From an uncultured Opitutia bacterium (lineage in GTDB: Bacteria > Verrucomicrobiota > Verrucomicrobiia > Opitutales > Opitutaceae), in NCBI GenBank assembly GCA_903877135.1, contig CAIRCN010000080.1:1-33925 (forward strand): a stretch of 33,925 nt of DNA. The letters run 5' to 3'. Below are positions 24,824 through 33,548 of this stretch, in pieces (position 1 is the first letter of the stretch; each line of letters opens with the position of its first letter). The position numbers and the translations under genes are program-made. The notes below the pieces were generated by a model. It made no database searches, was not told where the DNA came from, and saw nothing but the letters and a program-made list of their open reading frames with translations.

Positions 24824-25824
24824 CTATGCCGGCACGCGCGTCCACAGCCCCGTCTGCGCCGAATCGTAACACGCCGCGATGATCGCCACCGTATCGAGTG
24901 TGGCGGCAAGGTCTTGTGTGCACTCCATCGGCGTCAGCTCGCCGCGGATCGCCGCCACGAGCCGGTGCACTTGCGCGGGACGCGACGCGACGGCCGCGAG
25001 CGGCTGCGGCTCAGCACGACCATGGCAGCCGGTGAAGTAGTCCCGGCCGACCTGCCAGAGGGAATTTTCGGAGCCGATGATCTCTAGACCGTTCTCGCCG
25101 CCGGTTTGCGTCCATGCGGCCTCGACCGTTCCGAGCACACCGCTGGCGAAGCGCAGATGCGCCACGCCGTAATCGTCGCACCCCAGATAGATGCCCGCGT
25201 GATTGCCGATCTCGGCCCACACTTCGCGCACCGGCCCGAACAGCGTGCGCACCAGATGCACCGCGTGCGTGCCGACGTCCATGAACGCACCGCCGCCGGC
25301 CAACCCCGGCTCCGCGAACCAGCGCAGGTCAGGGTTGTCGAACCAGCGTCCATAGGCGCCGAAGTGCGAATTCCGCACCCGGATGCGCGTCACGCGGCCA
25401 AAGTCCCCACGACCCAGCATCGCCTCCGCCGCGCGCAGTTCGCCGGTGAACGGCAGAAAAAATCCGCAGAACAACACGCCCGGATGCGCCCGCACCAACG
25501 CCGCCACCTCGCGCAACTCCGCCGGCGTGGTAACGAGCGGCTTCGCGCAGAAACCGGTTTTCCCACGGGCAACACCTGGCGCAGCAACGGCAGATGCCGC
25601 GTGTTTTCCGCACAGATCACAAAACCGTCCACCGCCGGGTCGCGCAGCAACGCGCCAAGGTCGGGCACGTAGCGTGCGCGGGCCAGCTCCGCGTAGCGCA
25701 GCCCGCGCTCGGGCACGTCGTCCCACACGGCGTAAACCGTGCGGCCGTCAGTCGCACCCACAATCCCCTCAATGAACGGCCGCGCGTGGATGTGCGCCGT
25801 GGAGACAAACGCCAGGCGCGCCAT
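24824..25824 (-). pseudogene. Gfo/Idh/MocA oxidoreductase broken by a one-base frameshift
   Basis: The N-terminal part (from ATG 25824, MARLAFVSTAHIHARPFIEG through LLRQVLPVGKPV) and the C-terminal part (FCAKPLVTTPAELREVAALV through FAEPGLAGGGAFMDVGTHAV to LWTRVPA) lie in different frames that join near 25551-25560. Adding one A to the AAA run at 25551-25553 restores one protein of about 333 residues, the normal size. Two features are odd even when repaired: the usual GxGxxG loop is replaced by STAHIHA, and the family EKP motif reads AKP, although the catalytic Lys remains. It lies 6 bp after the intact oxidoreductase gene in the same direction and ends 25 bp from the tRNA-Ser 3' end. It could be a real pseudogene or a homopolymer sequencing error. 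Confidence 0.8.
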
Positions 25825-25830
25825 GGCTGG

Positions 25831-26883
25831 TTAGAGCTTGAGGGTGATCTCGCCGCCCTGCTGCGACGACGCGTAGACGGCCTCGAGTATGCCGATGACA
25901 TTGATGGTCTCGGTCCACGGCACCGGCGAGGGCTTGCCATTTACGACGCAGTCGTGGAACGCAGCGATCTCGTGCCAGTGCGGGTGTGGCACGTGCTCCG
26001 GCAGGGCGAGCGTCCCCTGCGCCAGCACAGCGTTTGGCGCAGCGGCAAATTCGCCGCTCGGCCAGCTGACGCCGCCCTTGCGGCCGAAGAGCTGCGCCAG
26101 CAACTCCTCGTCGTCCTTCTGGTGACCCATCCACGCGGCCTCGAGCACGAGCGTGGCGCCATTGTCAAAGTGCACGAAGCCCGCCGCAAAATCCTCCACG
26201 CTGTAACGCGCCCGGTCCCACTCACCCCAGCGGTTCGGCATGTCGTGGCCCTTCGCGAAATTCGTCTTCGAAGTGCCGGAGACGCGAACGGGTTTTGGGA
26301 AACCCATCAGCCAGAGGCAAAGGTCGAGCGCATGCACACCGATGTCCATGCACGGGCCGCCGCCGGCGAGTTTGGCGTCGATGAAACCGGGGGCCGGTGG
26401 GAGCCAGGCGCGGCGCATGGCGCGGACGCGGGCGTGGTAGACCTCGCCGAGGTTGCCGCCGTCGACCCAGGCCTTCACCGCGCGGCCGGGCGCTGTGAAA
26501 CGCTGGTGCTGCGCCGTCATGAGATTGAGTTTTTTCTTGTCGGCCAGTTGTCCGATCTGCCGCACCTCAGCCGTGCTGACGGCGAGCGGTTTTTCGCAGA
26601 GCACGTGCTTGCCCGCGGTGAGCGCGGCAAGCGCGGCGGGCGTGTGGATCTTGTTCGGCGTGCAGATGTCGACCGCATCGAGGTCGAGCTTCAGCAGCTC
26701 GCGGTAGTCGGTAAAAACCTGCGCACCGCCGGCGGCCTCCGCGGCTTTTTTCGCCGTGGCCTCCGAGACGTCGGCAATCCCGACGATTTCGGCCTCGGGG
26801 AGATTTCTCCAACCGGGGATGTGAACGGCTTGGGCGATGCCGCCCCCGCCGATGATGCCTACGCGGAATTTTCGGGTGCTCAT
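25831..26883 (-). CDS. Gfo/Idh/MocA-family oxidoreductase
   Basis: A 350-residue protein. Rossmann loop RVGIIGGGGIAQAVHIPGW at the N-terminus, TPNKIHTPAALAAL in the middle of the dinucleotide domain, the EKP motif in HVLCEKPLAVST near residue 98, and the second-domain motif GGGPCMDIGVHALDLCLWL with the conserved D-x-G-x-H. The ATG at 26883 was preferred over an upstream in-frame ATG because the sheet of the Rossmann fold starts directly after it. It should act on a sugar or polyol with NAD(P). It is followed after 6 bp by a broken relative, so the pair likely formed one operon. It is well diverged from the oxidoreductase at 10455. Confidence 0.9.
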   Translation of the reverse strand: MSTRKFRVGIIGGGGIAQAVHIPGWRNLPEAEIVGIADVSEATAKKAAEAAGGAQVFTDYRELLKLDLDAVDICTPNKIHTPAALAALTAGKHVLCEKPLAVSTAEVRQIGQLADKKKLNLMTAQHQRFTAPGRAVKAWVDGGNLGEVYHARVRAMRRAWLPPAPGFIDAKLAGGGPCMDIGVHALDLCLWLMGFPKPVRVSGTSKTNFAKGHDMPNRWGEWDRARYSVEDFAAGFVHFDNGATLVLEAAWMGHQKDDEELLAQLFGRKGGVSWPSGEFAAAPNAVLAQGTLALPEHVPHPHWHEIAAFHDCVVNGKPSPVPWTETINVIGILEAVYASSQQGGEITLKL

Positions 26884-27003
26884 GAAATTGAGAAGTTCAC
26901 CTGCAAGCGATGGCCAACCGCGCCATCGCGACAATCCCAAACCAACTCAGGCGCGCAGCCAGTCGCCGAATAATCTCAGCTCAACTTTGGAAAATGCCGC
27001 CGC

Positions 27004-27720
27004 TCAAAGGTCCCCAAGCTGCGGTCGGAGGACGATTTCCTCGACGACGGTCCGGCGGCACAGGCGATAGATATTCAGGAAGGCCCGTGCAACATCCTCA
27101 GCCGGCATCATCCGTTCCGCGGGCACGCCGCTGCCGTCCCACGAGGGGGAAACCGTCGCTCCCGGATGCACGCAGCACACCCGCACGCCCTTGTCCCGCA
27201 ATTCGGCGCGCATGACTTTGCTCAGGCCTGTGACGCCAAATTTCGCCGCGCAATACGCCGCGCCGCCCGGATAGGCCTGCAAGCCCGCGATCGAGCTCAT
27301 GTTAAAAATGTCGCCGCGGCCGCGCGCCACCATCCCGGGCGCAAACGCCCGCGACACGAGGAAAACGCTGCGCAGGTTGGCGGACACGATCCGGTCGAAA
27401 TCCGTCACGGTCATCTCGTCGAACGGCGCGCCGGCGAACTTGCCGGCGTTGTTTACGAGCACATCAACGGTGCCGAACCGCTTGGCCACGGACGCCGCCA
27501 GCGCGGACACGGCGGCTTCGTCGCTCACGTCGCAGACAAAACACTCCACCAGCGCGCCGACCTTGGCGCAGACGCGCGCCACGGCGGCGAGGTTCTTCGC
27601 GTTGCGGGCGACGAGGGCGAGCCGTGCGCCGCGGACCTCCTTGGCGAAGACCCGAGCGATCGCCGCGCCGATCCCCTGCGAGGCGCCGGTGATCAGGACA
27701 ACTGGACCGCGGGTCGCCAT
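27004..27720 (-). CDS. Short-chain dehydrogenase/reductase, possible sepiapterin-reductase-like step
   Basis: A 238-residue classical SDR: cofactor loop TGASQGIG at 11-18, an Arg-containing segment after strand 2 (ALVARNAKNL) favouring NADPH, NNAG at 90-93, catalytic Ser near 143 (NMSSIAG), and Y156-x3-K160 (YCAAK). The C-terminus is VEEIVLRPQLGDL, a form frequent in 3-ketoacyl-reductase-like SDRs. The start lies 4 bp after the FolE2 stop, and PTPS precedes FolE2, so the natural inference is reduction of 6-pyruvoyltetrahydropterin or a related pterin. Sequence alone does not prove this, since SDR substrates are hard to predict. Confidence 0.85.
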   Translation of the reverse strand: MATRGPVVLITGASQGIGAAIARVFAKEVRGARLALVARNAKNLAAVARVCAKVGALVECFVCDVSDEAAVSALAASVAKRFGTVDVLVNNAGKFAGAPFDEMTVTDFDRIVSANLRSVFLVSRAFAPGMVARGRGDIFNMSSIAGLQAYPGGAAYCAAKFGVTGLSKVMRAELRDKGVRVCCVHPGATVSPSWDGSGVPAERMMPAEDVARAFLNIYRLCRRTVVEEIVLRPQLGDL

Positions 27721-27724
27721 AGCT

Positions 27725-28705
27725 TCAGCACAGCAGCGCGCCGAAGTTCATGAAGTCGGCAGTGAAGCCGCCTTTCACGCCTTTGCAGATCACACTCACT
27801 GCGTCGTGCGAGTGCAGTGACTCGAGATGCGAGCAGGCGATCTGGAAATCCTTGATGCGCTTGTCGGCGTCGAACTCCTTGTAGAGCAGCCGCGCAGCGT
27901 CCTCGACGAACTTAAGGTGCGCGCCGTTGAGTTCGGCGAAGGCCTGCTCGTCTTCGCGCTTCACCATCACCTGCGTCTCCGTCTGGAGCGCGTTGAGGCA
28001 GTGCGCGTGCACGTCCTCGATCCAGATCTTTTTACCCTCGGCCTCCTCGATGGTGATGCGCGCCTTGCTGCGCTGCGAGTGCGGCACGCCGTAAGCGCCG
28101 CGGGCGTCGCGGGCATGCTCCGTCAGCTCGGCCGAGCACGGGCAGGCCGACGAGTAGACGAAGTCGAAGTGGATGAAGCGGCGGTATTGCCCGGTGCGGG
28201 TGAGCACGCCCTCGAACGCCACCATGTAATACTGGTAGCCCTCTAAGCCGCTGCGCAGGCTGCGGTGCAGCATCGGATAGGAGAACGTGATCTTGAGGCG
28301 CGCGGCCTTGCTCTTCACGTTGCGCAGGTAGGCCCGGAGGATTTTGCCCATCCACTCCCCGGTGAAGATCTCGTCCTTGTGGTCATAGAACGAGCGGACG
28401 ATGCGGCTCATGTTGATGCCCTTCAGCTCCGCCTCGAGCGACACGGTGCCGGTAATGCTCGCCTCCAGCGTGTGCACTTCGCCCTGCTTGGTGCGGAACC
28501 GGAGCGGTAGCTTGAAATTGTGCACCCCGACCTGCTGAATCGGGACATTCGCCCCGTGGATAGTATCGTGCGACGCCTCCATCATGTCGGGCAGTGTCGT
28601 GCGGTAGGCGCCGGTGGCGCGGAATTTCCGGTCGTAGCCGCGCGCAATGCGCGGCTCGGCCCCGCTCGCGGAGCGGTGAAGATACATCGGTTTGGTTTTG
28701 CTCAT
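27725..28705 (-). CDS. folE2: GTP cyclohydrolase FolE2 (GTP cyclohydrolase IB)
   Basis: A 326-residue member of the FolE2/COG1469 family, which converts GTP to 7,8-dihydroneopterin triphosphate and does not depend strictly on zinc. Recognisable blocks are [29 protein letters not shown], the active-site segment [10 protein letters not shown] (Cys188), VPHSQRS (His209), and [14 protein letters not shown] near 291-304 (E295, H298, H300), matching the family's ESIHNHDA block. It is somewhat longer than the shortest bacterial FolE2 proteins because of its N-terminus. It lies between a PTPS gene (65-bp gap) and an SDR gene (4-bp gap) in one direction, which points to unconjugated pterin (tetrahydrobiopterin-type) synthesis rather than only folate or queuosine. 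Confidence 0.93.
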
Positions 28706-28753
28706 GTCGTTTTTGCGGGGACGGTGGCAAGGCGGTTGGGACGATAACCGTAG

Positions 28754-28770
28754 GCCCGCGGGGTGCGGGC
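28754..28770 (-). terminator. Short hairpin between PTPS and folE2 genes
   Basis: GCCCGC and GCGGGC form a 6-bp stem with a 5-nt loop directly after the PTPS stop. No T run follows on the minus strand, so it is more likely an attenuating or mRNA-stabilising hairpin than a full terminator. Confidence 0.3.
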
Positions 28771-29250
28771 TTAGCTGGTCGGAGTGTCGGGTCCAAAAAA
28801 GTCGGCGTAGTTACGCGGGGTCTCGTAGAGCCGGACGCGGTGGAGCTGGCCGGGCGGGAGATGCGGGGCCATCTCGTTCCAGAACGCGATCACGAGATTC
28901 TCCGTGGTGGGGATGATGCCGCGGAGGAAGGCGACCTCGTCGTTGAGGTTGCGGTGGTCGCACTTGTCGACAACGACGCGGTGGAGGAGCCGTTTCAGCG
29001 CGCCGAGATCCATGAGATAGCCGGTGGCGGGGTCGGCAGGGCCTCGGAGCGTGACCTCGAGCACATAGTTGTGGCCGTGCCAGTGCGGGTTGGTGCACAG
29101 GCCGTATTGCGCCTGGTTCCACTTCAAGCTCTTGGTCGGGTTGTAGAGCCGGTGCGCCGAGTTGAAGTGCACCTGCCGGGTGATGAACACGGTGCCGCGT
29201 TGCACGCGCGGGGCGCGGGCGGCGGGGCGGCGGGAAGCTTTGGCAGACAT
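28771..29250 (-). CDS. 6-pyruvoyl-tetrahydropterin synthase of the BH4 (animal-like) type
   Basis: A 159-residue protein counted from ATG 29250. The zinc ligands are H33 (NSAHRL), H58 and H60 (HGH). The catalytic residues are C52 ([14 protein letters not shown]), D98-H99 (CDHRNLN) and E143 (LYET). These positions equal rat PTPS H23, H48, H50, C42, D88, H89 and E133 with a constant shift of ten. The C-x5-HGH spacing, [14 protein letters not shown] and PTTEN are those of true PTPS; QueD proteins have shorter Cys-to-HGH spacing and other sequences here. It should convert dihydroneopterin triphosphate to 6-pyruvoyltetrahydropterin. It is first in an operon with folE2 and an SDR and is divergent from the nucleotidyltransferase gene. 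The first 17 residues are basic and look dispensable. Confidence 0.9.
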
Positions 29251-29259
29251 GGAGGTGCA

Positions 29260-29287
29260 GAAGTAGCACAAAAGCACCGCGGGTCAA
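29260..29287 (-). promoter_or_regulatory. Weak candidate promoter of the pterin operon
   Basis: On the minus strand TTGACC (29282-29287) stands 16 bp from TACTTC (29260-29265), just before the PTPS ATG at 29250. The -35 is good and the -10 poor. If used, the transcript would have almost no leader. Confidence 0.25.
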
Positions 29288-29385: not shown

Positions 29386-30234
29386 ATGAGAATCCGCAAA
29401 GCTCTCGTCACCGCAGCCAATCCCCGCCAGCGCACCCTCCCGCTCCAGACGCTCGTCGACCCGCACGGCGAACCCAAGTCCGCCCTCCAGATCGTGCTCG
29501 AGGAGGCGGCGGGGGCGGGCATCGAGGAATTTTGCATGGTGGTGTGCCCGGGCGACGAGGCCGCCTACGCCGACGCCTGCGGCGCGCTGCGCCCTGCCGT
29601 GCGGTTTGTCACACAGCCGGCGGCGCGCGGCTACGGCCACGCGGTGCTCTGCGGCCGCGAGTTCACCGGCGGCGAGCCGTTTCTGCATCTCGTCGGCGAC
29701 CACCTGCACGTGGCGCAGGGCAAGACGAGCTGCGCCCGCCAGCTCCTCGACGTCGCCGCCGCGGAGAACGCCCCCGTGTCCGCCGTGCAGCCCACCCGCG
29801 AGAGCCAGCTCACCTCCTACGGCGCGGTCGGCGGCCGGCTCGTCGGCGGCGACCGACCCCTCTACCAGATCGAGGCGGTGCTCGAAAAACCCACGCCCAC
29901 CGTGGCCGAACAGCAGCTCATCGTGCCGGGCCTGCGCGCGGGCTTCTACCTCTGCTTCTTCGGCCTGCACGTGCTCGGAACTGAGATTTTCACCCTGCTC
30001 GACGAACAACAGGCTGCCGCGCCCGACCGCCCGCTGGGGCTCTCGCCCGCGCTGCACACGCTCGCCGGCCGCCAGCGTTACCTCGCCTTCGCCGTCGCGG
30101 GCCGCCGCTACGACATCGGCGCGCCCTACGGCCTGCTGCTCGCCCAGCTCGCCCTCTCACTCTCCGGCCGCGAGCGCGACCGCGTCCTCACCCAGCTCGT
30201 CGAGCTGCTCGCCCTCCGCCCGACCGAATCATGA
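29386..30234 (+). CDS. GalU-like sugar-1-phosphate nucleotidyltransferase with altered nucleotide loop
   Basis: A 282-residue protein of the NTP_transferase fold. GalU-type landmarks are ALQIVLEEAAGAGIEEFCMV, RGYGHAVLC (82-89, cf. GLGHAV in GalU), the acidic VGDHLHV (D105), SYGAVGG, and VLEKPTPT. The normally glycine-rich start (AAGLGTRFLPATK) reads ALVTAANPRQRTLPLQTLVD, so the nucleotide loop has lost its glycines but keeps a basic residue. Activity may be changed or may depend on a partner. The gene overlaps the next one by four bases (ATGA), indicating coupling to the kinase/pyrophosphorylase fusion. The frame extends far upstream, but the ATG at 29386 is where the fold begins. It is not the housekeeping GalU by sequence. 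Confidence 0.82.
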   Translation: MRIRKALVTAANPRQRTLPLQTLVDPHGEPKSALQIVLEEAAGAGIEEFCMVVCPGDEAAYADACGALRPAVRFVTQPAARGYGHAVLCGREFTGGEPFLHLVGDHLHVAQGKTSCARQLLDVAAAENAPVSAVQPTRESQLTSYGAVGGRLVGGDRPLYQIEAVLEKPTPTVAEQQLIVPGLRAGFYLCFFGLHVLGTEIFTLLDEQQAAAPDRPLGLSPALHTLAGRQRYLAFAVAGRRYDIGAPYGLLLAQLALSLSGRERDRVLTQLVELLALRPTES

Positions 30235-33200
30235 GCCTGCGCGTCACCGACATCATCGATTCCGGCGACAACGCCAAGCGCAATCTCGCGATTGACCGCT
30301 GGTGTGCCGGCCGGCCGGCTGCGGAGCTGCTCGCCGCGTGTGCGGAGCTCGACGCCTACCGGCGCCGTGAAACGAATCTCTACAAACGCGTCCGCGCGCT
30401 CTTCTTCCTCACCGCGATCCACCGCTACCACCTACCCGCACGGCCGGAGCTGCCGCGATCGGGCCGCGTGCCGTTCGCCGGCTTCCGCCACCTGCTCGAG
30501 CGGCGCTTCGAGGAGGCGATCGCGGCGTTTCTGCGCGTGCAGACCGACCAGGGGCCGAGCGAAACGCTCTCCAGCGCGCTCGCCGCCGCACACCACGCGC
30601 TGGCCTTCCAGACGCTGGCCGACCAGGTGCGGCGCACCGTCCGCTCCACGCGCGGCAACGCCTGGATGTTCCGCCTCGGTCACCCGCTCGACCAGCCGCT
30701 GCGGGTGCGACCTGAACTCCTGGCGCGCGACACGCCCGAGACACCGCATCCCGTCCTGCGCGAGCGCACGCCGGTGCGCATGGACCTGACACACTGCGGC
30801 TGGAGCGACATCTTCTTCCTAGGCATGGATTTCCCCGAGGGCGCGCGCGTGCTCAACATCTCCATCGACCTCGGTGTGCACGGCCGCGACGCGGCGCCGC
30901 GGCCGCCGGTGGAGGCGTTTTTCCGCGTGATCGACGAGCCGGTGATCCGGTTGGCCAGCGTCGACCTCGAGGCCAGCGCCTGTCTCACGACGCTCGACGA
31001 AGTGTTCGATTTTGGCCGCGACTACCTCGGTCTGCTCAAGGCCGCCATCATTGCTGCCGGTCTCGTGCCACCCGGCATCGAGCGCTCGGGCGCGAGCCTC
31101 GCGGAACTGCTCGGCGCCATTTTCGGCCCGGGCCGCGGCTTCGAGCTCGTCAGCAACGTCAACCGCATCCCCAAGGGTTCGCGGCTCGCCGTCTCGACCA
31201 ACCTCCTCGGCGCCCTGATCGGCGTCTGCATGCGCGCGACCGGGCAGGTCCGCTCGCTGACTGGCGCGATGGACGAGCCGGAGCGGCGCAGCGTCGCCGC
31301 CCGCGCCATCCTTGGCGAATGGCTCGGCGGCTCAGGTGGCGGCTGGCAGGACTCCGGCGGCCTGTGGCCCGGCATCAAGCTCATCGAGGGCGCGCCGGCG
31401 CAGCCCGACGACCCGGAATACGGCGTCAGCCGCGGGCGACTGCTGCCGCGGCACACCCTGCTCGGCCACGACCGCATTCCCGCCGAGGCGCGCCGGAAAC
31501 TCCAGGATTCGCTCGTGCTCGTCCACGGCGGCATGGCGCAAAACGTAGGCCCCATCCTCGAGATGGTCACGGAGAAATACCTCCTGCGCGGCGAGGCCGA
31601 GTGGGCCGCCCGTCAGCGCGCCGTCGCCACGCTCGACGATATCCTCGCCCTGCTCGCCGCCGGTGATATCCGCGGGCTCGGGGCCGCGCTCACCGCCAAC
31701 TTCCGCGGTCCGCTCCAGACCATCATCCCGTGGGTCACCAATCTCTACACTGAAACGCTGATCGAGCTCACCCGCGCAGAATTCGGCGACGACTTCTGGG
31801 GCTTCTGGATGCTCGGGGGCATGTCGGGCGGGGGCATGGGCTTCATCTTCGCACCAGAGCGTCGGCGCGAAGGGCAGGAGCGCCTCCGCGATATCATGCT
31901 TGCCACCAAGCGTGAGTTCCAGGCCGCACTGCCGTTCGCGATGGACCCGGTCGTCTACGATTTCGCCATCAACGAGGACGGTTCGGTCGCGACCGTGCTG
32001 ACCGGCGACGCGGCGTTGCTGCCAGTGGCCTACTACCAGCAGGCGATGCCCGCGTGCCTCCGGCGCGCGGCGCGCGACCTGAGTGCCCGCGAGCGGCGCG
32101 ACCTGCAGCAGTTCACCCACGCGGCGCGCACCCAGCCGGAATTTTCCGGCGCGCTACCCGCCCTGCTCGACCGGATGCTGCCCACCAACGACACCAACGG
32201 CGGGAGCGGCCGGCGCCTCACGGAGCTGCTTGCGGAAAACGGTTTCGACCGCGCCCAGCACGAGCAGATTCGCAGCGACCTGCGCGCGGGCCGCATCGGG
32301 CTCGCGATGAACCGGCTGTCCGCCACAACCCGCATCGAGGACGTGAAACCCGGCGCGCTGTTCGACGCGACCAGCGGCGGGAGCGAGCATCGCGCCGCGG
32401 GGGCGGCGGCCTTGCGGCGCGGCGAAGTCGCCGTCGTCACCTATGCCGCGGGTGTCGGCAGCCGCTGGACGCAGGGCGCGGGCGTCGTCAAGGGCCTGCA
32501 CCCGTTCGCCCGGCTGGGCGGACGCCACCGCAGCTTTATCGAGACGCACCTGGTAAAGACGCGCCGCGCGGCGGCCGAGGCTGGCGCGGCGATCCCTCAC
32601 GTGTTCACCACGAGCCATCTCACCCATGCGCCGATTGAGCACTGGGTGCGCGGCGCCGTCGGTGCCGCGTGGGAGAGCGACGTATGGCTGTCGCCCGGCC
32701 GCTCGATTGGGCTGCGGTTGGTGCCGACTGTGCGCGATCTGCATTTCGCATGGGAGGAGACGGCCCAGCAGAAGCTTGACGAGCAAAAGGAAAAGATGCG
32801 CGAAAGCGTCCGCGCCGCCCTGACCGGCTGGGCCCGCACCTCCGGCGAAGGCGCCGACTATACCGACAACGTGCCCGAACAGTGTCTCCACCCCGTCGGC
32901 CACTGGTTCGAGCTGCCGAATCTACTGAAGAACGGCACCCTCGCCCGCTTGCTTGCGGCCCACCCGCAGCTGCGCACGCTGGTCGCGCACAACATCGACA
33001 CGCTCGGTGCCACGCCCGACGCCGCGCTGCTCGGCTGGTTCCAAGCCAGCGGCGCCACACTCGGCTGGGAAGTGATTCCCAAGCGCATCGAGGACCACGG
33101 CGGCGGCCTCGCGCGCGTCGACGGTCGCCTGCGCATCGTCGAGGGCCTGTCGCTGCCCCGCGAGGAGGACGAGTTTGCGCTCACCTACTACAGCACCAAC

Positions 33201-33548
33201 ACCTGCTGGGTGGACATCGACCGGTTGCTCGCGGTCTTCGGGCTCACGCGGGCCGACCTCGCCAACGAGGAGCGCAATGCCGCCGCCGTCCGCGCGCTCG
33301 CCACCCGGCTGCCGACCTACGTGACGCTCAAGGACGTCAAGAAACGCTGGGGTCACGGCCAAGAGGACGTCTATCCCGTCGCACAGTTTGAAAAACTCTG
33401 GGGCGATATGACCGCGCTGCCCGAGTGTCGCAGCGTTTTTGCGGTGGTGCCCCGCGCGCGCGGCCAGCAACTCAAGGACCAGGCGCAGCTCGACAGCTGG
33501 CAGCGCGACGGCTCCGCCGCCCACATCGAGTCGCTCTGCGCGTGGTGA
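30231..33548 (+). CDS. Fucokinase-like GHMP kinase fused to a UDPGP-family pyrophosphorylase
   Basis: A 1105-residue protein. Residues 1 to about 175 are helical and of unknown role. A GHMP kinase follows: RMDLTHCGWSDIFF near 184 (motif 1), IPKGSRLAVSTNLLGALIG near 311 (motif 2, cf. PKGSGLGTSS in fucokinases), GGSGGGWQDSGGLWPGIKL near 366 with the probable catalytic Asp, and LGGMSGGGMGF near 527 (motif 3). From about 735 a UDP-sugar pyrophosphorylase-like domain follows: TYAAGVGSRW then VVKGLHPF (nucleotide loop and Lys), HNIDTLGATPDAALLGWF near 920, EVIPKRIEDHGGGLARVDG and YYSTNTCWVDIDRL. The implied two-step reaction is free sugar to sugar-1-phosphate to NDP-sugar, as in bacterial FKP (L-fucokinase/GDP-fucose pyrophosphorylase), but with the domain order reversed and a UDPGP-type partner. 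The substrate is unknown. It is translationally coupled to the GalU-like gene. Confidence 0.82.
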   Translation: MSLRVTDIIDSGDNAKRNLAIDRWCAGRPAAELLAACAELDAYRRRETNLYKRVRALFFLTAIHRYHLPARPELPRSGRVPFAGFRHLLERRFEEAIAAFLRVQTDQGPSETLSSALAAAHHALAFQTLADQVRRTVRSTRGNAWMFRLGHPLDQPLRVRPELLARDTPETPHPVLRERTPVRMDLTHCGWSDIFFLGMDFPEGARVLNISIDLGVHGRDAAPRPPVEAFFRVIDEPVIRLASVDLEASACLTTLDEVFDFGRDYLGLLKAAIIAAGLVPPGIERSGASLAELLGAIFGPGRGFELVSNVNRIPKGSRLAVSTNLLGALIGVCMRATGQVRSLTGAMDEPERRSVAARAILGEWLGGSGGGWQDSGGLWPGIKLIEGAPAQPDDPEYGVSRGRLLPRHTLLGHDRIPAEARRKLQDSLVLVHGGMAQNVGPILEMVTEKYLLRGEAEWAARQRAVATLDDILALLAAGDIRGLGAALTANFRGPLQTIIPWVTNLYTETLIELTRAEFGDDFWGFWMLGGMSGGGMGFIFAPERRREGQERLRDIMLATKREFQAALPFAMDPVVYDFAINEDGSVATVLTGDAALLPVAYYQQAMPACLRRAARDLSARERRDLQQFTHAARTQPEFSGALPALLDRMLPTNDTNGGSGRRLTELLAENGFDRAQHEQIRSDLRAGRIGLAMNRLSATTRIEDVKPGALFDATSGGSEHRAAGAAALRRGEVAVVTYAAGVGSRWTQGAGVVKGLHPFARLGGRHRSFIETHLVKTRRAAAEAGAAIPHVFTTSHLTHAPIEHWVRGAVGAAWESDVWLSPGRSIGLRLVPTVRDLHFAWEETAQQKLDEQKEKMRESVRAALTGWARTSGEGADYTDNVPEQCLHPVGHWFELPNLLKNGTLARLLAAHPQLRTLVAHNIDTLGATPDAALLGWFQASGATLGWEVIPKRIEDHGGGLARVDGRLRIVEGLSLPREEDEFALTYYSTNTCWVDIDRLLAVFGLTRADLANEERNAAAVRALATRLPTYVTLKDVKKRWGHGQEDVYPVAQFEKLWGDMTALPECRSVFAVVPRARGQQLKDQAQLDSWQRDGSAAHIESLCAW

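Follow-up and report, generated by a model that had tools for sequence, protein, structure and literature searches.

Results

Genes of the locus

Three genes read in one direction lie at positions 27004-29250 on the minus strand of the window, by which we mean the whole 33,925-nucleotide stretch of DNA that was analysed, and all three are present where the preliminary description of this DNA had placed them. Their order on that strand is PTPS, FolE2 and SDR. The first gene (28771-29250) encodes a predicted 6-pyruvoyltetrahydropterin synthase of the PTPS-II type with 159 aa from the ATG at 29250, the second (27725-28705) encodes FolE2, a type IB GTP cyclohydrolase I of 326 aa, and the third (27004-27720) encodes an SDR of 238 aa that is predicted to be a sepiapterin reductase of the Chlorobium tepidum type. 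PTPS and FolE2 lie 65 bp apart, and the SDR start at 27720 confirms the claim that this gene begins 4 bp past the folE2 stop. The open frame of the PTPS extends from a GTG at 29277 to 28771 (168 aa); on the sequence, the ATG at 29250 appears to be the likelier start, because the first possible start of the relatives L026, L028 and L032 falls at about that position.

A Gfo/Idh/MocA oxidoreductase gene (25831-26940, minus strand) lies directly downstream of the SDR. This gene was considered as a fourth member of the pathway and rejected; it was matched in one of the 18 other loci of the order (L026) and probably stands outside the pathway. A second gene of the same family (24824-25824, minus strand) is split over two frames, 25390-25824 and 24824-25726, which we attribute to a frameshift or a sequencing error. 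On the plus strand, positions 30231-33548 encode a 1105-aa protein that has a weak UDPGP match at residues 884-1003 and adjoins a nucleotidyl transferase-like gene.

PTPS

The PTPS protein matches Pfam PF01242 with 115.3 bits and falls under both NCBIfam curated cut-offs, that of the general family (85.2 vs 125.5 bits) and that of QueD, TIGR03367 (64.2 vs 89.25 bits). The residues C52, D98, H99, E143, H33, H58 and H60 of the 159-aa numbering, which correspond to C61, D107, H108, E152, H42, H67 and H69 of the 168-aa frame, are presumably the catalytic and zinc residues of rat PTPS, and none of the seven varies in a 19-row alignment. The residue set with rat spacing that had been claimed for this protein is borne out, since the numbers fit from the ATG at 29250 and the HMMER alignment of the window PTPS to rat PTPS runs without a gap across 130 residues. 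Of the solved structures, 3i2b (4.5e-31) and 1b66 (1.6e-30), the human and rat PTPS, come closest; 2oba (3.9e-11) and the 6-carboxytetrahydropterin synthase 4ntm (2.5e-7) follow. The ranking was unchanged when a 19-row PTPS profile was compared with the solved structures (3i2b 152.8, 1b66 152.6, 2oba 59.8 and 4ntm 48.2 bits).

The signature of the protein is C61-TNPHW-HGH in the 168-aa numbering, that is, Cx5HGH. According to the signatures given in an excerpt of PMC5041015, CxxxxxHGH denotes PTPS-II, CxxxHGH denotes QueD (PTPS-I) and ExxHGH denotes PTPS-III. The Cx5HGH form is present in 79 of the 80 loci of a second collection, which was drawn from genome contigs as the best 80 of 580 relatives (L060-L139). 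Two relatives within the same gene cluster depart from the signature: the PTPS of L037 (6353-6856) has Cx3HGH through a two-residue deletion, and that of L095 (6001-6492) lacks the signature cysteine.

In a 69-row tree, a branch with support of 98/94 has six QueD-side rows on one side and, on the other, the window PTPS with the remaining bacterial PTPS-II and three animal enzymes; in a count of QueD versus animal plus window rows, the split occurred in 100% of 200 bootstrap trees. The window PTPS thus sides with the animal enzymes and not with QueD, and its Cx5HGH form together with this position upholds the earlier statement that it is no simple QueD. The tree contains long branches (the QueD-like row of the same genome is very long, and the PH0634 and nematode rows are long), and relations within the PTPS-II side are largely unresolved; therefore, we claim no special tie of the window PTPS to animals. 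The rows of L024 and L025 include short flanking sequence beyond the gene, from which stop signs were deleted; several rows are cores or begin at a chosen in-frame base instead of a start codon. The reading of the window protein as QueD was rejected on the missing CxxxHGH, the TIGR03367 score and the tree position, and the reading as a folate-bypass enzyme of the PTPS-III type was rejected on the missing ExxHGH (Pro stands where this signature has Glu) and the same tree position.

FolE2 and other pterin genes of the genome

FolE2 exceeds the curated cut-off of NCBIfam NF010200 (281.8 vs 215 bits) and matches PF02649 with 241.7 bits. A search of the genome with PF01227 found no FolE, and FolE2 is therefore the sole GTP cyclohydrolase I detected in this genome, which agrees with the proposal that it replaces FolE. 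Because no other such enzyme was found, FolE2 probably feeds folate and queuosine synthesis as well. Elsewhere in the genome lies another COG0720 gene, whose product has the CxxxHGH signature; on its sequence this protein is likely QueD, and it falls under the curated QueD cut-off (76.1 vs 89.25 bits). A QueC gene and a FolB gene are also located elsewhere. Since these three genes are encoded outside the cluster, the queuosine and folate pathways probably have their own later enzymes and do not depend on the window PTPS.

SDR

The SDR contains PF00106, and none of the 25 NCBIfam models listed for it reaches its cut-off. In four comparisons, the proven sepiapterin reductase of Chlorobium tepidum (2bd0) ranks first. 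A single-sequence search of the PDB with phmmer gave 145.3 bits for 2bd0 and, by a thin margin, 140.1 bits for the next entry, 3rkr, an uncharacterised SDR. With a 25-row profile, 2bd0 scored 215.7 bits and the next entry 187.7 bits. The predicted model of the SDR has a mean pLDDT of 95.1; Foldseek of this model placed 2bd0 first with E 3.3e-26 and TM 0.94 (next, 3.3e-23), and VIA-align also placed it first, with Z 36.4 and an rmsd of 1.2 over 234 aligned positions (next, Z 33.8). The Foldseek and VIA-align matches listed include no animal sepiapterin reductase, which we do not count as evidence. The sequence and the predicted model thus favour the suggestion that the SDR stands in the place of a sepiapterin reductase.

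The SDR and 2bd0 share 89 identical residues over 232 aligned positions (38%). S143, Y156, K160 and W194 of the SDR align with S145, Y158, K162 and W196 of 2bd0; the Ser-Tyr-Lys triad is invariant in the 25-row set and in another set of 21 rows, and the Trp is invariant in the former and kept in at least 90% of the latter. Moreover, the C-terminal stretch RTVVEEI-LRP is kept. Phe-99 of 2bd0 is not kept and is aligned with Gly-97 of the SDR; in a study of the Chlorobium sepiapterin reductase, Phe-99 and Trp-196 reportedly matter for the L-threo product. A reading of the SDR as a pterin reductase of the FolM/PTR1 type was rejected: the motif TGxxxRxG, which we take to be the cofactor motif of that type, is absent, and the SDR has TGASQGIG.

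Conservation of the gene order

A close match to the PTPS occurs in 19 of 177 genomes of the order, including that of the window. Among the 18 other loci, 17 have FolE2 behind PTPS on the same strand; the exception is L043, where FolE2 comes first and a different SDR, 28% identical, lies nearby on the other strand. The survey of related genomes recovered the three-gene order PTPS-FolE2-SDR in 15 of these 18 loci, and because this order is kept so often, we exclude a chance origin of the cluster. At L034, two genes (L034:7923-9825) separate folE2 from the SDR, one for a C-5 cytosine DNA methylase and one with weak likeness to an Eco29kI/GIY-YIG nuclease; they are perhaps an inserted restriction-modification pair.

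Among the best 80 of 580 relatives in the second collection, the 39 nearest loci (L060-L098) belong by name nearly all to Opitutae, Opitutaceae, their genera or Verrucomicrobia. FolE2 follows PTPS in 39 of these 39 loci and the SDR is present in 33; three of the six loci that lack it end at a contig end. The 41 more distant loci (L099-L139) have FolE2 after PTPS in 14 cases and an SDR of more than 100 bits in 10, with both at one locus and neither at 18. The collection and the set from the order partly overlap and are not independent, as exemplified by L103 and L040 (G057 contig 16), whose contigs are equally long and whose PTPS cores are identical. A scan of the gene directly after PTPS covered 12 of the 41 distant loci (11 of 26 loci whose gene layout was drawn up, plus L099), and this gene is FolE in 10, a SOUL-family gene at L101 and the SDR itself at L099. 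Because FolE stands directly after PTPS in 10 of 12 scanned loci, the data suggest that this slot serves GTP cyclohydrolase I activity. At five loci of Rhodothermota and Bacteroidota (L100, L105, L108, L111 and L114), FolE lies between PTPS and the SDR.

In a sample of 387 genomes of the phylum, which took other genomes of the order than the 177-genome set, PTPS was found at E <= 1e-25 in 30 genomes, 29 of them from the family of the window, probably Opitutaceae to judge by its nearest named relatives. Among the genomes of this family listed in this sample, 29 of 36 have the gene and seven do not. The preliminary description had spoken of tetrahydrobiopterin synthesis in a limited set of bacteria, and this must be corrected for the family, in which PTPS is common.

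The SDR and PTPS also occur apart. The SDR at E <= 1e-40 is absent from three of the 19 PTPS genomes, and six genomes of the order have it at this threshold with no PTPS match. In three of the six (G020, G054 and G138), the SDR is 50-52% identical and a FolE2 lies approximately 4-5 kb off on the opposite strand; these genomes may have lost PTPS, or their SDR may have a different pterin as its substrate. For the remaining three, with an SDR 37-48% identical, FolE2 was not found in the stretch examined. Conservation of the SDR without folE2 and PTPS had been named in advance as evidence against the proposed pathway, and it is partly seen: the six genomes lack a PTPS match, and three of them have FolE2. 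The loci of G020, G054 and G138 (L054, L055 and L056 with L048-L050) belong to another family, and in them a pterin carbinolamine dehydratase gene precedes FolE2.

Possible users of the cofactor

The genome of the window is 97.29% complete, so that a miss is possible, and it gave no match to aromatic amino acid hydroxylase (PF00351), NO synthase (PF02898) or carbinolamine dehydratase. Within the order, the hydroxylase occurs in 4 of 19 PTPS genomes vs 1 of 158 others (Fisher p 0.00046) and the dehydratase in 15 of 19 vs 57 of 158 (Fisher p 0.00043), in tests that ignore shared ancestry; NO synthase occurs in 2 of 19 vs 10 of 158. A hydroxylase or an NO synthase is encoded in six of the 19 PTPS-FolE2 genomes; in the other 13, neither was found. 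The hydroxylase is thus associated with PTPS and is insufficient as an explanation of the operon, and the proposed survey of related genomes for it found none in the window genome and, among the 19 PTPS genomes, none in 15. One protein of the broad fatty acid hydroxylase family PF04116 is encoded in the genome (L059, 335 aa), and its role as an alkylglycerol-monooxygenase-like consumer is a guess. Two genomes of the window's family, G050 and G102, encode a bacterial NO synthase along with PTPS and FolE2, which makes them candidates in the search for a bacterial NO synthase that uses biopterin.

Discussion

The identities of the three genes rest on family, tree and predicted structure, and their order rests on conservation. 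On sequence and modelled structure, we consider it highly probable that they form an operon for a cofactor of the tetrahydrobiopterin type, and the interpretation given in the preliminary description is mostly supported. In the proposed pathway, FolE2 would convert GTP to dihydroneopterin triphosphate, PTPS would convert the latter to 6-pyruvoyltetrahydropterin, and the SDR, acting as a sepiapterin reductase, would use NADPH to reduce both ketones of the side chain. We infer these reactions, as well as the use of NADPH and the co-transcription of the genes. Judged from the sequences, a tetrahydrobiopterin would be the likeliest product; it may be of the erythro or threo form and free or glycosylated.

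SDRs readily change substrate, and the operon might instead yield a different tetrahydropterin. The SDR would then reduce one ketone only or another side chain, to give, for example, a lactoyl-type product, or a further step would give a glycoside. The thin single-sequence margin of 2bd0 over 3rkr and the loss of Phe-99 fit such a product, and so does the sugar that Chlorobium attaches to tetrahydrobiopterin, as stated in a part of PMC5683033. However, 2bd0 is set further from the next entry in both the profile and the structural comparison, and Trp-196 and the C-terminal RTVVEEI-LRP are kept; we consider a different product improbable. It is hardly credible that PTPS is a QueD or a PTPS-III enzyme with the SDR as an unrelated neighbour: the score of the other COG0720 protein makes the QueD of this genome uncertain and six genomes of the order carry the SDR with no PTPS match, with identities of 37-48% in three cases, but the Cx5HGH signature, the tree position, the conserved adjacency of the SDR and the presence of FolB and QueC all argue against it.

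Tetrahydrobiopterin is a cofactor best known from animals, and a biopterin pathway is also known in Chlorobium and cyanobacteria. The operon proposed here for a tetrahydrobiopterin resembles the animal pathway in that its PTPS aligns to the rat enzyme without a gap; unlike that pathway, it has FolE2 instead of the GTP cyclohydrolase found in animals, and its SDR has the Chlorobium enzyme as its best match. The Chlorobium tepidum pathway, in which 2bd0 makes L-threo-tetrahydrobiopterin, has the SDR closest in sequence and predicted structure, with the triad and Trp-196 kept, although the identity is 38% and Phe-99 is not shared. The PTPS-II of Synechococcus, a member of a COG0720 subfamily, has the same CxxxxxHGH signature and was compared by that signature alone, as published in the excerpt of PMC5041015. 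The PTPS-FolE-SDR clusters of Rhodothermota and Bacteroidota have the same order and an SDR 42-57% identical, whereas their middle slot holds FolE (PF01227) and that of the window holds FolE2 (PF02649). Such clusters are probably already known, because a figure legend in PMC5041015 refers to conserved gene contexts for PTPS-I, II and III and names Rhodothermus marinus. Therefore, we regard the window cluster with FolE2 as a further example of a known bacterial pathway, in which gene identity and order are well supported and the product is a proposal short of proof. A search of the open-access literature, with subscription papers mostly outside its scope, found nothing on Opitutaceae with tetrahydrobiopterin, and the cluster may have been reported.

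These observations place a biopterin pathway in a verrucomicrobial family in which the gene order is widely kept, and they show one position of a gene cluster occupied by either of two distinct GTP cyclohydrolase families. They also raise the question of what consumes the cofactor in bacteria that have none of the known users, which we consider the part most worth following. Pteridine glycosides have been found in cyanobacteria and Chlorobium, and light protection has been proposed for them, according to parts of PMC3546692 and PMC5683033. Tentatively, and at somewhat less than even odds, we suggest that a tetrahydrobiopterin of the window's family, which is probably Opitutaceae, perhaps in the L-threo form and perhaps glycosylated, may serve a pterin-dependent enzyme that is as yet undescribed or may have an enzyme-free role in redox chemistry or light protection.
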